Origin: a virus
Strand: one strand, 5' to 3'
Virus record (IMG/VR): IMGVR_UViG_3300013006_000083
Coordinates: 1-32,593 of that record
Length of the DNA stretch: 32,593 bases
Shown here piece by piece: positions 23,921 through 31,853 of the stretch. The position numbers were made by a program, and so were the translations under genes. The stretch's first letter is position 1, and each line of letters begins with the position of its first letter. The notes under the pieces were generated by a model. That model saw only the letters and a list, made by a program, of their open reading frames with translations. It was not told where the DNA came from and made no database searches.

Positions 23921-26203
23921 ATGATCGAGTTTATAGCATCTTTGGCCCCAGAGGGTGAAACAGCGCTGATAGTCAGGCAAAAACCTAAATTAAAAGACGG
24001 AGCGTTGGATTTTCACGCCGATGGGGCCGTCAAGGCCACTTGGCCGGCGTTCTTGCCCAGCCACAGAACCAAGGCCGGCGAGTCGTGGTACGGCAACACC
24101 GCCAGCTTTATCGTGGAGCGTTTCAAGGACGGCCATGTCAGCGCCAGCGCAGCGAACTGCGAGTACATCTTGGTGATGATGCTGGACGACATAGGCACCA
24201 AGAGCAAGACCCCGCCCCTGCCGCCGACATGGATCATGGAGACATCAGCCGGCTCGTTCCAGTGGGGCTACGCCTTCAACGAGCAGCCCACCAAAGGCGA
24301 GTTCAGCGCGGCCATCAAGGCCATCGCAGACGCTGGCTACACAGACCCTGGCGCCATCAATGCCGTTCGCAACTTCCGTCTGCCTGGCTCAGTCAACCTG
24401 AAGCCTGGGCGTGATAACTTTGAAGCCCGTCTGGTTGAGTTCCACCCAGAGCGTGACTACAGTCTGCCCGAGATATGCGCCGCTCTGGGCGTGACGCCAG
24501 CGGCTGCTGACAGCCTGACCCTGCGCCCCATTCGCATCAGTGACGATGGCGCAGATGATGTGCTGGCGTGGCTGTCAGCGCAGGGGCTGCTGCTGTCCAA
24601 ACCGAACCAAGAGGGCTGGGCCGGCGTAATCTGCCCCAACAGTGAGCAGCACAGCGATGGAAACCCCGAGGGGCGCTACATGCCCGCCAATCGGGCGTAC
24701 TGCTGCCTTCACGGCCACTGCGTTGATCTGGATTCTCGCACCTTCTTAGATTGGGTGGCCGAAAATGGTGGCCCCAAGCACACGCCTGGGCTGCGTGAAG
24801 AACTGTTTACGGCCGCAATGGAGGGCGCGCTTGCCAAGCTGACGCCGAACGATGTCTTTACAGACGCCGCTGCCGAGCGTATCGCCGAGGTCGAGCGCAA
24901 GGAATTAGGCCGCATTGAAAAGGCCGACTGGTACGAGCGCTTCGCCTACATTCAGGACGATGAGTCGTATTTCGACATGCAAGACCGCCGCGAAGTCTCC
25001 CGTCAGACCTTCAATGCCCTGTTCAGGCATATTTCGTGCAAGTCGATCCACACCGGACGCAAGATCGAAGCGTCTATCTGCTACGACGAGAACCGCCAAG
25101 CCAAGGGCGCCAAGGCGCTGGTTGGCATCACCTACGCCGCCGGCGAGTCGGTGTTGGTTACCCGAGACGGCGACATCTACGGCAACCGCTGGCGCGATGC
25201 GCGGCCAGCAACCGCAGCCGGCGATGTCACCCCTTGGCTTGAGCACTGCCGCGCTTTGGTGCCCGAGGCCAAAGAGTTAGAGCACATCCTGGATGTGATG
25301 GCGTTCAAGTTGCAGCACCCCGAGATCAAAGTCAATCACGCGATTTTGCACGGCGGCGATCAAGGCAGCGGCAAGGACACCATGTGGGCGCCGTTCATCT
25401 GGTCGGTCTGTGGAGCGCACCTCAAGAACAGGGGCTTGCTGGACAATGACACCATGAGCAGCCAGTTTGGCTACGCCTTGGAGTCTGAGATTCTGATTCT
25501 GAACGAGTTGAAAGAACCAGACGCCAAGGAGCGCCGCGCACTGGCTAACCGCTTGAAGCCTATCATCGCAGCGCCGCCCGAGATGCTCACGATCAACCGT
25601 AAGGGTTTACACCCATACGCGATGGCAAACCGCGTTTTTGTGCTGGCGTTCTCCAATGACCCCGTGCCCATCAGTTTGGACAGTCAGGACAGGCGCTGGT
25701 TTTGCGTGTGGTCGCATGCCCCCAGAATGACACCAGACGCTGCCGCCAAGATGTGGGCTTGGTACAAGGCCGGTGGCTTTGCAGCAATCGGGGCATGGCT
25801 TGCTGCGCGTGATGTATCGGCGTTTAATCCTGGTGCAGCGCCAATGATGACCGAGTTCAAATTGAACCTTGTCGAGCATGGCTTGAGCATCGCAGAATCG
25901 TATCTAGTCGAGGCCATGCGCTTGAAAGTAGGCGAGTTCAGCAAAGGCGTTATCGGTAGCCCCTTTCACGCTGTCTGCGACCGACTGGCAGGGTCAGCAC
26001 CAGCAGGCGTTAAAGTGCCGCAGCAGGCGCTGTTGCATGCGTTCAAAGAGGCCGGATGGGTTGACCTTGGCCGCGTAGCGTCTTCAGACTATCCAAGCAA
26101 GAAACACCTGTACTGTGCGCCTGACATGGCCGGCGGCAATAAGTCCAATTTACGCCGGCTTGTTGAGGATGCGCCGCCGGCTGGCTTAGTTAGGGTCAAG
26201 TAA
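23921..26203 (+). CDS. Primase-helicase, RepB-primase/DUF5906-like
   Basis: The 760 residue protein has a strong AAGGAGAG site. The N-terminal part has the RepB-like primase pattern: YILVMMLDDIGTKS and later FRLPGSVNLKPG. A zinc-binding cluster follows near residues 237-267 (CPNSEQH, YCCLHGHC). The C-terminal ATPase has Walker A GGDQGSGKDT (near 478), Walker B EILILNELKE and a LAFSND sensor-like element, as in phage and virus superfamily 3-type helicases. It probably primes and unwinds DNA for the adjacent family A polymerase. Confidence 0.85.
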   Translation: MIEFIASLAPEGETALIVRQKPKLKDGALDFHADGAVKATWPAFLPSHRTKAGESWYGNTASFIVERFKDGHVSASAANCEYILVMMLDDIGTKSKTPPLPPTWIMETSAGSFQWGYAFNEQPTKGEFSAAIKAIADAGYTDPGAINAVRNFRLPGSVNLKPGRDNFEARLVEFHPERDYSLPEICAALGVTPAAADSLTLRPIRISDDGADDVLAWLSAQGLLLSKPNQEGWAGVICPNSEQHSDGNPEGRYMPANRAYCCLHGHCVDLDSRTFLDWVAENGGPKHTPGLREELFTAAMEGALAKLTPNDVFTDAAAERIAEVERKELGRIEKADWYERFAYIQDDESYFDMQDRREVSRQTFNALFRHISCKSIHTGRKIEASICYDENRQAKGAKALVGITYAAGESVLVTRDGDIYGNRWRDARPATAAGDVTPWLEHCRALVPEAKELEHILDVMAFKLQHPEIKVNHAILHGGDQGSGKDTMWAPFIWSVCGAHLKNRGLLDNDTMSSQFGYALESEILILNELKEPDAKERRALANRLKPIIAAPPEMLTINRKGLHPYAMANRVFVLAFSNDPVPISLDSQDRRWFCVWSHAPRMTPDAAAKMWAWYKAGGFAAIGAWLAARDVSAFNPGAAPMMTEFKLNLVEHGLSIAESYLVEAMRLKVGEFSKGVIGSPFHAVCDRLAGSAPAGVKVPQQALLHAFKEAGWVDLGRVASSDYPSKKHLYCAPDMAGGNKSNLRRLVEDAPPAGLVRVK

Positions 26204-29227: not shown

Positions 29228-29255
29228 AGTGTAAGGGAATTATTTGCAATGTCAA
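29228..29255 (-). promoter_or_regulatory. Sigma70-like promoter for the upper minus-strand array
   Basis: On the minus strand TTGACA (29255-29250), 16 bases, TACACT (29233-29228). The perfect -35 and a 4 of 6 -10 predict transcription starting near 29221, 23 bases before the first start codon. Confidence 0.78.
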
Positions 29256-29266
29256 GGGCTAAATGC

Positions 29267-29281
29267 TAGGGACTTTCCCTA
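29267..29281. promoter_or_regulatory. Short palindrome upstream of the promoter
   Basis: TAGGGA (29267-29272), CTT, TCCCTA (29276-29281). It lies about 45 to 60 bases upstream of the predicted start, where activators or repressors bind. Confidence 0.45.
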
Positions 29282-29303
29282 TGTAAACTTATCTTTTACA
29301 GTG

Positions 29304-29669
29304 TTTAGGTCATTTGTGCCAAAAGTTAAGCCGTGATTTAGGCGGTTTTGGCCTATGCGTGCCTCGAATGAAATGCTAGGGTTTTGGGTCTTTTGGGTCA
29401 TTAGATATATAAACTGATGTTAAATATAGTGTATACAATACTGTATACGGTAACTGTATACAATGTTATAAGCTAGCGACTGCGTTAGGTCAACCTAAAT
29501 GACCCATAACCCGCCGCGCCGATAAGCCCCGCGCAAAATGGCTTTGTGTCTTTTGGGTCAATGCTTTGCACATGGCCTAAATGACCCAAAGGCCAAAGGC
29601 CGCGCGCGCATGCTATCGGCTCGCATGTTGCAATGTGTTGACTTGTTTAGGTCAACCTAAATGACCCAT
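29304..29669. repeat. Array of TTTRGGTCA / CCTAAATGACCCA repeats
   Basis: CCTAAATGACCCA occurs exactly at 29494, 29576 and 29656, spaced 82 and 80 bases apart. The first and third are part of a 23-base exact repeat (29485-29507 and 29647-29669) that opens with the palindrome TTAGGTCAACCTAA. TTTTGGGTCA in the other sense stands at 29391 and 29551, with related TTTAGGTCA at 29304 and TTTTGGGTC at 29382. Together with the AT-rich block between them this looks like a replication origin or a multi-site operator. This is the main content of the gene-free stretch. Confidence 0.82.
29401..29470. other. AT-rich segment with three GTATAC sites
   Basis: GTATAC occurs at 29431, 29443 and 29456, spaced 12 and 13 bases, inside about 70 bases that are mainly A and T. 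It is flanked by the GGGTCA repeats. It may be a DNA unwinding element or a cluster of protein sites; TATACAAT-like runs could also act as -10 boxes. Confidence 0.6.
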
Positions 29670-29693
29670 GCCCACACGTTGCCGGATAAGTTA

Positions 29694-29786
29694 GTCAGCA
29701 CTCACTCACCAGGTTGTAAGTGAGTGCTAACTGGGGCGGTGCATGTGAGTAAGTGCTTACATACCAGGCTGTAAGTAAGTGCTTAC
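29694..29786. repeat. Four 16-base repeats GTRAGTRAGTGCTNAC before terS
   Basis: One inverted copy (29694-29709) and three direct copies (29716-29731, 29745-29760, 29771-29786). The first two form a long hairpin (AGCACTCACT and AGTGAGTGCT). CCAGGYTGTAAGT precedes the second and fourth, so a unit of about 23 bases is duplicated 55 bases apart. Position about 120-210 bases before the terminase small subunit gene fits a cos/pac recognition site; an operator is the alternative. Confidence 0.75.
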
Positions 29787-29791
29787 TAACT

Positions 29792-29850
29792 TAGGGGGTG
29801 GGGGTAGGGCCGGCGGCCAGGGGGCCACGGTGGCGGAGGGGCTACAAACA
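29792..29850 (+). other. G-rich tract, possible quadruplex or end-cleavage region
   Basis: Runs of five G at 29794, 29800 and 29820 with GGG at 29807 and GGGG at 29838 satisfy a loose G-quadruplex pattern. The tract adjoins the 16-base repeats and ends before the AT-rich leader of terS. Confidence 0.5.
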
Positions 29851-29902
29851 AAATTTTTTTTAATGTAAACTGCACGCACACGTACCAGTGGCTGGAGAAT
29901 CC

Positions 29903-30349
29903 ATGTTTTACTCGCTTCCATTTGAGGCGCGCAAAGTCGAAGCGACAGAGGCGCGCTTAAACCGAATCTACGACGCTGCCAAGCTGGGCTTGAAGGGCGA
30001 CACATTAGCTATGGCTGCGGGCATGTTGCCCACCGAGTACCGCCAACTGTGCCAGCTTGACCCGATTGCCGAGGTCGCCGCGTTGAAGGGCAAGGCCGAT
30101 GGCGAGATAGAAGCCTCACGCCAACTGCACAAAGCCGCCGCCGAAGGGGACGCCAAAGCCAGTCTGGCGATCTTGCAGCATGTCCACGGTTGGGTCGCCA
30201 AACAGGCCATTACCATCGACGTGGATCAGCGCATCTCGATCACCGCCGCCCTGGCCGAAGCCGAGCGGCGCGTCATGGACGTTATTGAGAACAACCCAAG
30301 TGAATACCTCACGCCAAAACTAGATGCAGTCCACCAAGTACAGCGCTGA
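29903..30349 (+). CDS. terS: Terminase small subunit
   Basis: The ATG at 29903 has GGAG 5 bases before it; a GTG at 29888 would put that site inside the gene. The 148 residue protein (MFYSLPFEARKVEATEARLN) carries a helix-turn-helix-like part (RIYDAAKLGLKGDTLAMAAG, MLPTEYRQL) then helices (EIEASRQLHKAAAEGDAKAS, LAILQHVHGW). The position directly before the large subunit and the match to the small-subunit layout support the call. It would recognise packaging DNA, most likely in the repeat region just upstream. Confidence 0.8.
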   Translation: MFYSLPFEARKVEATEARLNRIYDAAKLGLKGDTLAMAAGMLPTEYRQLCQLDPIAEVAALKGKADGEIEASRQLHKAAAEGDAKASLAILQHVHGWVAKQAITIDVDQRISITAALAEAERRVMDVIENNPSEYLTPKLDAVHQVQR

Positions 30350-31853
30350 AGACGAACAAGAGTTGATGGCGCGGCTGTGGTCGCCCCAGATCAAGGACAA
30401 CCCGCTGGCGTTCGTGATGCTGCTGTTTCCGTGGGGCGTCAAGGGCACGCCGCTGGAGCATTTCAGCGGGCCGCGCAAGTGGCAGCGCGAGGTGTTGCAA
30501 GACATCGCGGCGCACATCAAGCAGAACAACGGCAAGATTGACTTTGATACCCTGCGCGAAGCGGTCGCGTCAGGCCGTGGTATCGGCAAGTCGGCGCTTG
30601 TGAGTTGGCTGGTAATCTGGATGCTGTCCACGCGGATCGGCTCGACAACCATCGTGTCGGCCAACAGCGAATCGCAGTTGCGTAAGGTGACCTGGGCCGA
30701 GATCACCAAGTGGCTGGCGATGGGGCTAAACAGCCACTGGTTCGAGGTCAGCGCCACCAGTCTGCAACCGGCCAAGTGGCTGACCGAGTTGGTCGAGCGC
30801 GATCTGCGTAAGGGCACCAGGTATTGGGGCGTTGAGGGCCGGCTGTGGTCGGCTGAGAATCCAGACGCGTTTGCCGGTGTGCACAACATGGACGGCGTGC
30901 TGGTCATCTTTGACGAGGCCAGTGGTATTGATGACGCCATCTGGGCGGTGACGGCGGGTTTCTTTACGGAGAACACGCCCAACAGGTTCTGGTTTGCGTT
31001 CTCCAACCCCCGCCGCAACACGGGGTACTTTTACGAGACGTTCCACTCCAAGCGCGACTTCTGGAACACCAAGGTGGTGGACGCCCGCACGGTCGAGGGG
31101 ACAGACAAGGCGGTCTACCAGCAGATCATCGACGAGTACGGGCCGGACTCGGCCCAGGCGCACGTCGAGGTGTACGGCCAGTTCCCGAGCGCAGGCGACG
31201 ATCAGTTCATTGGCGCCAATACGGTGGACGAGGCCATGAAGCGGGTCAAGTACCAAGACATGAGCGCGCCGATTGTGATCGGTGTCGATCCGGCGCGGTT
31301 CGGCGCGGACGCTACGGTGATTGCGGTCAGGCAAGGGCGCGACATTGTGAAGATCATCAGGCACCGAGGCGACGACACCATGACCGTGGTGGGGTATGTG
31401 ATCGACGCCATTGAGGAATACAAGCCCACGCTGGTCGTCATCGACGAAGGCGGGCTGGGCGCGGGCATTGTGGACAGGCTCAAAGAGCAGCGCTACAAGA
31501 TCAAGGGCATAAATTTTGGCAACAAGTCCAAAAACCCGATAATGTATGGCAACATGAGGGCGCAAATGTGGGGTGATATGCGGGAGTGGTTGAAAACGGC
31601 CAGTATTCCGAACGACAGGTTCTTGAAGACGGACTTAATTTCGCCTATGATGAAGCCTGATTCACGTGGAACAATCTTTTTGGAGTCGAAAAAAGACATG
31701 AAATCACGCGGTTTAGCCTCGCCAGACGCTGCGGACGCTATTGCAGTGACGTTTGCCTTTCCCGTGGCCCATCGGGGCGAGTACAATGCGCGCACAACCA
31801 CCCGCCGGACGTATTCAGACACTTCGGCCAACACATCTTGGATGGGAAGCTAG
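30324..31853 (+). CDS. terL: Terminase large subunit
   Basis: The 509 residue packaging motor overlaps terS by 26 bases. The ATPase has SGRGIGKSAL (Walker A, 83-92) and VLVIFDEAS (Walker B, 192-200). The RNase H-like nuclease has GVDPARFGADA (Asp322), LVVIDEGGLGAG (Asp374) and SPDAADAIAV (Asp468, Asp471). It cuts and pumps DNA into the procapsid through the portal, which is not in this window. Confidence 0.94.
   Translation: MQSTKYSAEDEQELMARLWSPQIKDNPLAFVMLLFPWGVKGTPLEHFSGPRKWQREVLQDIAAHIKQNNGKIDFDTLREAVASGRGIGKSALVSWLVIWMLSTRIGSTTIVSANSESQLRKVTWAEITKWLAMGLNSHWFEVSATSLQPAKWLTELVERDLRKGTRYWGVEGRLWSAENPDAFAGVHNMDGVLVIFDEASGIDDAIWAVTAGFFTENTPNRFWFAFSNPRRNTGYFYETFHSKRDFWNTKVVDARTVEGTDKAVYQQIIDEYGPDSAQAHVEVYGQFPSAGDDQFIGANTVDEAMKRVKYQDMSAPIVIGVDPARFGADATVIAVRQGRDIVKIIRHRGDDTMTVVGYVIDAIEEYKPTLVVIDEGGLGAGIVDRLKEQRYKIKGINFGNKSKNPIMYGNMRAQMWGDMREWLKTASIPNDRFLKTDLISPMMKPDSRGTIFLESKKDMKSRGLASPDAADAIAVTFAFPVAHRGEYNARTTTRRTYSDTSANTSWMGS

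Follow-up and report, generated by a model that had tools for sequence, protein, structure and literature searches.

An iteron array upstream of terS, probably a phage replication origin, whose letters vary with the wing of the phage primase-helicase

The intergenic array

The window considered here is the entire IMG/VR virus record IMGVR_UViG_3300013006_000083 (32,593 bases) and is probably incomplete: relatives with a full or nearly full genome measure about 36-39 kb. It carries genes for terminase, major head protein, DNA polymerase and helicase, and no integrase was noticed in the part of its open reading frames that was searched. A gap of 632 bases (29256-29887), with small minus-strand genes on one side and the plus-strand genes terS and terL on the other, holds an array of short repeats, or iterons (29304..29669, no strand assigned). 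This array is considered below as the probable replication origin of the phage, and the primase-helicase encoded at 23921..26203 on the plus strand as its proposed initiator.

The layout of the array matches that of relatives. Three copies of CCTAAATGACCCA were located at 29494, 29576 and 29656 (spacings of 82 and 80 bases), with no further copy in the window. The 23-bp exact repeat TTAGGTCAACCTAAATGACCCAT, present at 29485-29507 and 29647-29669, starts with the palindrome TTAGGT-CA-ACCTAA, and TTTTGGGTCA stands in opposite sense at 29391 and 29551. All these elements, together with an AT-rich block, had been described in an earlier note on this DNA and were recovered as described. Neither of the two outcomes that the note had named as contrary to its reading occurred: the unit was not scattered elsewhere, and related phages carried repeats at the same place. 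The motif TRGGTCA displayed eight copies in the gap, where its density in the remaining window predicts 0.12.

Units of TGGGTCA, full or with one mismatch, were found on the plus strand at 29306, 29385, 29394, 29486, 29554 and 29648 and on the minus strand at 29500, 29582 and 29662, each minus unit having a degenerate partner 9 bp away. TGGGTCATT, an iteron of 9 bp, is the basic unit and has a tandem partner 9 bp on. Many relatives have an intact partner (TGGGTCATTTGGGTCA), the window a degenerate one (TGGGTCATTTAGG); the 13-mer CCTAAATGACCCA consists of one complete 9-bp unit and a second, truncated one. The non-coding region thus holds several short copies of one unit, the repeat pattern of an iteron-type origin. 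An Rfam search gave no match.

Iteron units flank the 100-bp stretch with the highest AT content in the window. This stretch is overlapped by an AT-rich block between the iteron groups (about 29400..29480, no strand assigned, 73 % AT), a candidate unwinding element. In 132 relatives, the best 40 bp of the gap reached a median of 82 % AT against 51 % around it, so that an AT-rich region beside the iterons, as in iteron origins, was present by composition and position in these relatives and in the window.

Other motifs were encountered in the same block. Three GTATAC follow each other in the window (29431, 29443 and 29456; region 29431-29461) in steps of 12-13 bp, and a similar sequence occurs in L008 and L107 (L-numbers denote loci of related phages), about where other relatives have a palindrome. 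A LexA/SOS-box-like palindrome, CTGT-N8-ACAG, lies inside the AT block of 18 of the 132 loci (e.g. L003, L013, L058 and L061) against 0.12 expected from shuffles. This resemblance suggests that host LexA or a similar regulator may act at the origin in part of these phages.

The array in related phages

About 300 loci were gathered by TerL and primase searches, and two later scans added 146. With the probable terS as a landmark, the array layout was found to recur upstream of this gene in well over 100 related phage contigs, where tandem pairs were clearer than in the window. Outer units are followed by an inward-facing pair, an AT-rich gap (median 104 bp), an opposite inward-facing pair and further pairs. 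Inward-facing units flanked the AT gap on both sides in 105 of 132 loci, which is the two-set arrangement of phage-inducible chromosomal islands (PICIs) and Staphylococcus aureus pathogenicity islands (SaPIs). The 9-bp step between tandem units was kept across relatives while distances between groups varied from phage to phage. The step of about 80 bp, read in the earlier note as close to eight helical turns, with sites on one DNA face as in iteron origins and looping repressors, was therefore not conserved, and that part of the note is not upheld.

Iteron letters differed among phages, close ones included. The classes encountered were TGACCCA, TGTCCACA, GCCAACA, GCCGACA, GCCTACA, TGTCCATA and GACTACA. 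Cores comprised GTCCACA, ACCCAAA, GCCCACA, GCCAACA, ACCCACA, GCCTACA, ACCTACA, GTCCATA, GCCGACA and others, with GACTACA in the later set, and followed the consensus [GA]1-[TCA]2-C3-N4-A5-[CAT]6-A7, in which C3 and A5 hardly varied. The seed pattern used for the first set was constrained at several positions; positions 2, 4 and 6 were free in the test on the later scans. A second, palindromic array close to terS was masked when iterons were called in relatives. Loci L064, L065 and L076 form a TGACYCAC class with a tandem step of apparently 10 bp instead of 9; L064 and L065 carry a GLLKSRAHTTKKH wing in their primase-helicase.

The tandem pair was confined to the array region in the four near-complete TGGGTCA-class genomes examined, and the reversed pattern was never found in them. 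Two other 13-mers are also present three times in the window, as might be expected from chance repeats or an assembly artefact. Nevertheless, numerous contigs assembled separately have the array at this very place, and its density is far above expectation; such an origin of the repeats, already refuted by the relatives, has a negligible probability.

Co-variation of the primase-helicase wing with iteron letters

Of all genes other than terS and terL, that of the primase-helicase was found most consistently in relatives reaching far enough. The protein (760 aa) matched DUF5906 above cut-off and the PHROG category DNA primase, with a RepB_primase match below cut-off, and it thus displays the primase and helicase core of D5/SF3-like initiators. 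Its helicase part resembles by sequence the solved NrS-1-type primase chains 6k9c/6k9e. NrS-1 primase-polymerase likewise joins a phage primase to a related helicase (PMC7102993); the match is limited to residues 449-595 and leaves the C-terminal domain unmatched. For this domain, AlphaFold2 predicted a winged helix at residues 657-750 (25889..26170, plus strand), with a predicted local distance difference test score (pLDDT) mostly of 79-90. Only the C-terminal run was used, the full-length model (mean pLDDT 57) being poor except in parts of the helicase and at the C-terminus; it gave matching elements for the winged helix. Sequence, profile, family and fold searches with the winged helix, solved structures included, revealed no significant described relative.

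The last part of the primase-helicase varied with iteron class. The first set comprised 143 reliable, de-duplicated loci and the later scans provided 67 reliable new loci (210 in total); although the queries for the latter were new, these loci are in part relatives of the first set, and they represent a check rather than a fully independent sample. A sliding-window partial Mantel test, controlled for primase residues 101-640, peaked at residues 716-730 (r 0.64-0.65; 0.644 with 0 of 500 permutations). The 95th percentile of the other primase windows was 0.137 and the remaining primase stayed at about 0. The peak corresponds to the wing (codons at 26066..26110, plus strand), while the helix preceding it was nearly invariant among relatives. 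Normalised mutual information, calculated over 760 columns in the 143 loci, was highest at residue 722 for position 6 (0.68) and at residue 720 for position 2 (0.43); position 4 displayed no single clear partner, gap-rich C-terminal columns interfering. In the predicted structure, residues 720, 722 and 725 (Ala, Ser and Pro in the window phage) belong to the loop that connects the two strands of the wing. Strong co-variation with iteron letters, as would be expected of a cognate initiator, suggests together with this model that the wing may contact bases.

Arginine at residue 722 was combined with C6 in 105 loci of the first set and other residues with A or T at position 6 in 38, without exception. 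All 67 later loci displayed R722 with C6, none of them lacking R722, and the pairing therefore held throughout the 210 reliable loci. Lysine at residue 720 accompanied T2 in 50 first-set loci and C2 in 10, while other residues accompanied C2 in 83 and T2 in none. In the later scans T2 was found exclusively with K720 (33/33), and T720 with A2 (10/10), a pairing absent from the first set. Residue 725 and position 4 showed a tendency towards Q-A, D-C, S-T and P-T, Q occurring also with C, T and G. Independent pairs on a tree of residues 1-640 behaved as expected in 7 of 7 and in 11-12 of 13 cases, and in the opposite way in none.

Close relatives displayed natural swaps. The primases of the window and L092 had no differences at residues 661-715 and about a dozen at 716-746; their iterons read ACCCAAA and GTCCACA, respectively, and their TerL were 98.8 % identical. 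L062 and L054 shared an identical TerL over 508 residues and differed by 1.7 % at primase residues 101-640, and both their wings and their iterons were different.

The same partial Mantel test uncovered no coupling of TerS or TerL to iteron letters (maxima 0.10 and 0.058). It served as a linkage control, because terS adjoins the array while the end of the primase gene lies about 3 kb off. Wing and iterons differ in the same phage pairs and this genome part is mosaic, as would also be seen if a single recombining unit carried both, with no direct recognition. Linkage alone is nevertheless very improbable: terS is closer and yet uncoupled, the small genes between primase and array were shuffled in pairs with equal as well as different iterons, and identical residue-base pairs recurred on separate tree branches.

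A packaging (pac/cos) or terminase-binding site would suit the position of the array just upstream of terS, where a separate conserved element also stands directly before the gene. It has an equally slight probability, as iteron letters did not follow either terminase subunit and the identical TerL of L062 and L054 coexist with different iterons. The probable terS (29888..30349, plus strand) is a small open reading frame directly before terL, with an OR003940 orthologue in the annotated position of the terminase small subunit; a PHROG search with it gave no match. The control gene terL (30324..31853, plus strand) was assigned by PHROG as terminase large subunit. Between the iterons and terS lies the masked second array (29687-29793), made of palindromic repeats (AAGTTAGTAAGTGCTTACTAACTT-like) with a step of about 29 bp and strong hairpin potential. 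Its copy number varied in part of the relatives, it was absent in others, and it showed no strict link to TerS identity. It is followed by a GC-rich stretch and an A/T tract (ACAAACAAAATTTTTTTTAAT; 29793-29862) directly before terS, a candidate packaging site or promoter; the A/T-tract motif was found in 161 of 177 relatives.

The array could also be a multi-site operator, bound by the C-terminal domain of the primase-helicase or by a different regulator of the phage to control a leftward early or rightward late promoter, replication starting elsewhere. It lies between divergent gene blocks and beside a promoter-like site, and the AT block of part of the relatives contains a LexA-type palindrome. 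The putative promoter of the leftward small genes, sigma-70-like (TTGACA-16-TACACT; 29228..29255, minus strand), was found by consensus scan just outside the array, and similar sequences are present in L058 and L034. However, the partner that tracks the letters is the primase-helicase and no regulator, two iteron sets flanking an AT-rich block suit an origin better, and the small early genes were patchy in relatives. An operator in place of an origin is thus unlikely. The earlier note had left origin and operator side by side: an iteron origin beside an unwinding-prone block is strongly backed by conservation and co-variation, and an additional operator role is possible.

Two other binders were rejected. 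Having seen no gene for an origin-binding protein, the note had proposed a new binder or a small early protein. This does not agree with the C-terminal winged helix encoded within 23921-26203, which tracks the repeat sequence; moreover, early proteins were patchy, and a Pfam search with seven of them gave no domain above cut-off. Host DnaA was considered since the TGTCCACA class comes near a DnaA box: its TTGTCCACA (e.g. in L073 and L026) differs by one mismatch from the DnaA box of bacteria, TTATCCACA. Other classes do not, and the letters track the primase wing; the likeness is possibly an ancestral state or a coincidence. L082 (MW202483) encodes at 1838-2134 a stand-alone DnaA C-terminal helix-turn-helix protein (UOF77628.1; Bac_DnaA_C, E 1e-17); its primase C-terminus is divergent and its repeats are GTAAACA-like.

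Proposed initiation of replication and known systems

The array is very probably a replication origin recognised by the phage's own primase-helicase and organised like those of phage-inducible islands, because its position, layout and AT block are conserved in relatives and its letters co-vary with this protein. The C-terminal winged helix would bind the 9-bp iterons on either side of the AT-rich block, and rings of primase-helicase would form on both sides (two rings by analogy). The protein would then melt the block, load itself and prime, and replication would begin. Recognition may be divided between the near-invariant helix with C3 and A5 on the one hand, and wing residues 720, 722 and, less cleanly, 725, reading positions 2, 6 and 4, on the other. 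A natural code is put forward more tentatively, as plausible, in which an undescribed winged helix would read its site mainly via the wing loop: Arg722 with C6 (a G in the complementary strand), Lys720 with T2, Thr720 with A2 and, approximately, Gln725 with A4 and Asp725 with C4. Close relatives would repeatedly switch wing and about ten iterons jointly, perhaps under pressure from satellites, rival phages or origin-directed nucleases exploiting the origin.

Several observations weigh against these proposals. Ten first-set loci combined K720 with C2, position 4 was predicted only loosely by residue 725, and 27 of 132 loci lacked inward-facing units at the called AT gap, possibly an effect of iteron calling. 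GC skew, which the earlier note had suggested as a check, was uninformative, without a consistent switch at the array in the window, three near-complete relatives and MW202483. Finally, the initiator gene is 3 kb away, unlike in island origins, which directly follow rep.

Iteron origins with a self-encoded primase-helicase initiator are a kind already known. The alpha protein of satellite phage P4 is a primase-helicase recognising iterons itself, P4 also needing a second site, crr. In 2001 Arguello-Astorga and Ruiz-Medrano (cited in PMC12548392) reportedly paired amino acids and bases of geminivirus Rep and iterons by comparison, much as here. Geminivirus Rep is a rolling-circle protein of plant viruses, unlike the present initiator in fold and mechanism.

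The ring-assembly mechanism is proposed by analogy to SaPI Rep and Cch2, which bind iterons through their C-terminal domains (PMC7581432), and to island origins, where an AT-rich region is flanked by two sets of iterons (PMC6092414). SaPI/PICI origins with Pri-Rep resemble the present one in their element-specific iterons and in an initiator helicase, sometimes primase-fused, that recognises them via its C-terminal domain (PMC6092414, PMC7581432). By contrast, the present elements are virus records with terminase and virion genes: the window displays terminase, major head protein, DNA polymerase and helicase genes instead of an integrated island with int and master repressor. Their proposed origin lies upstream of terS and not immediately 3' of the proposed initiator gene (the primase gene ends at 26203 and the array starts at 29304), with opposite-strand genes between, and they display 9-bp tandem pairs and a residue-level wing rule. 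SCCmec Cch2 is also a D5/SF3-like helicase, whose isolated C-terminal domain binds AAGTG direct repeats, but its primase is a separate protein, it has three iterons only and belongs to a staphylococcal cassette (PMC7581432). In the PLE RepA/ICP1 Odn modules of Vibrio cholerae, initiator specificity and origin iterons likewise swap jointly between near-identical elements; RepA differs in its RepA_N domain, its semi-palindromic iterons of about 30 bp and its protein family (PMC8263062).

Relatives from genome collections were contigs of metagenome-assembled genomes, several labelled Rhodoferax or other Betaproteobacteria, and the host is likely a freshwater betaproteobacterium. The GenBank relative MW202483 is annotated with P22-like coat and portal proteins.

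Free phages as carriers, an origin apart from the initiator gene, many interchangeable specificities and a residue-to-base wing rule appear to be new within the searchable, mostly non-subscription literature. It is an open question by what route initiators and the multiple copies of their sites switch specificity jointly. At least eight natural specificities in one layout are offered here, along with near-isogenic pairs differing mainly at wing and iterons, which make the residue-to-base rule directly testable. An origin would thereby be assigned for a large freshwater phage group with few described members, and an origin organisation described as peculiar to phage-inducible islands (PMC6092414) would extend to free phages.
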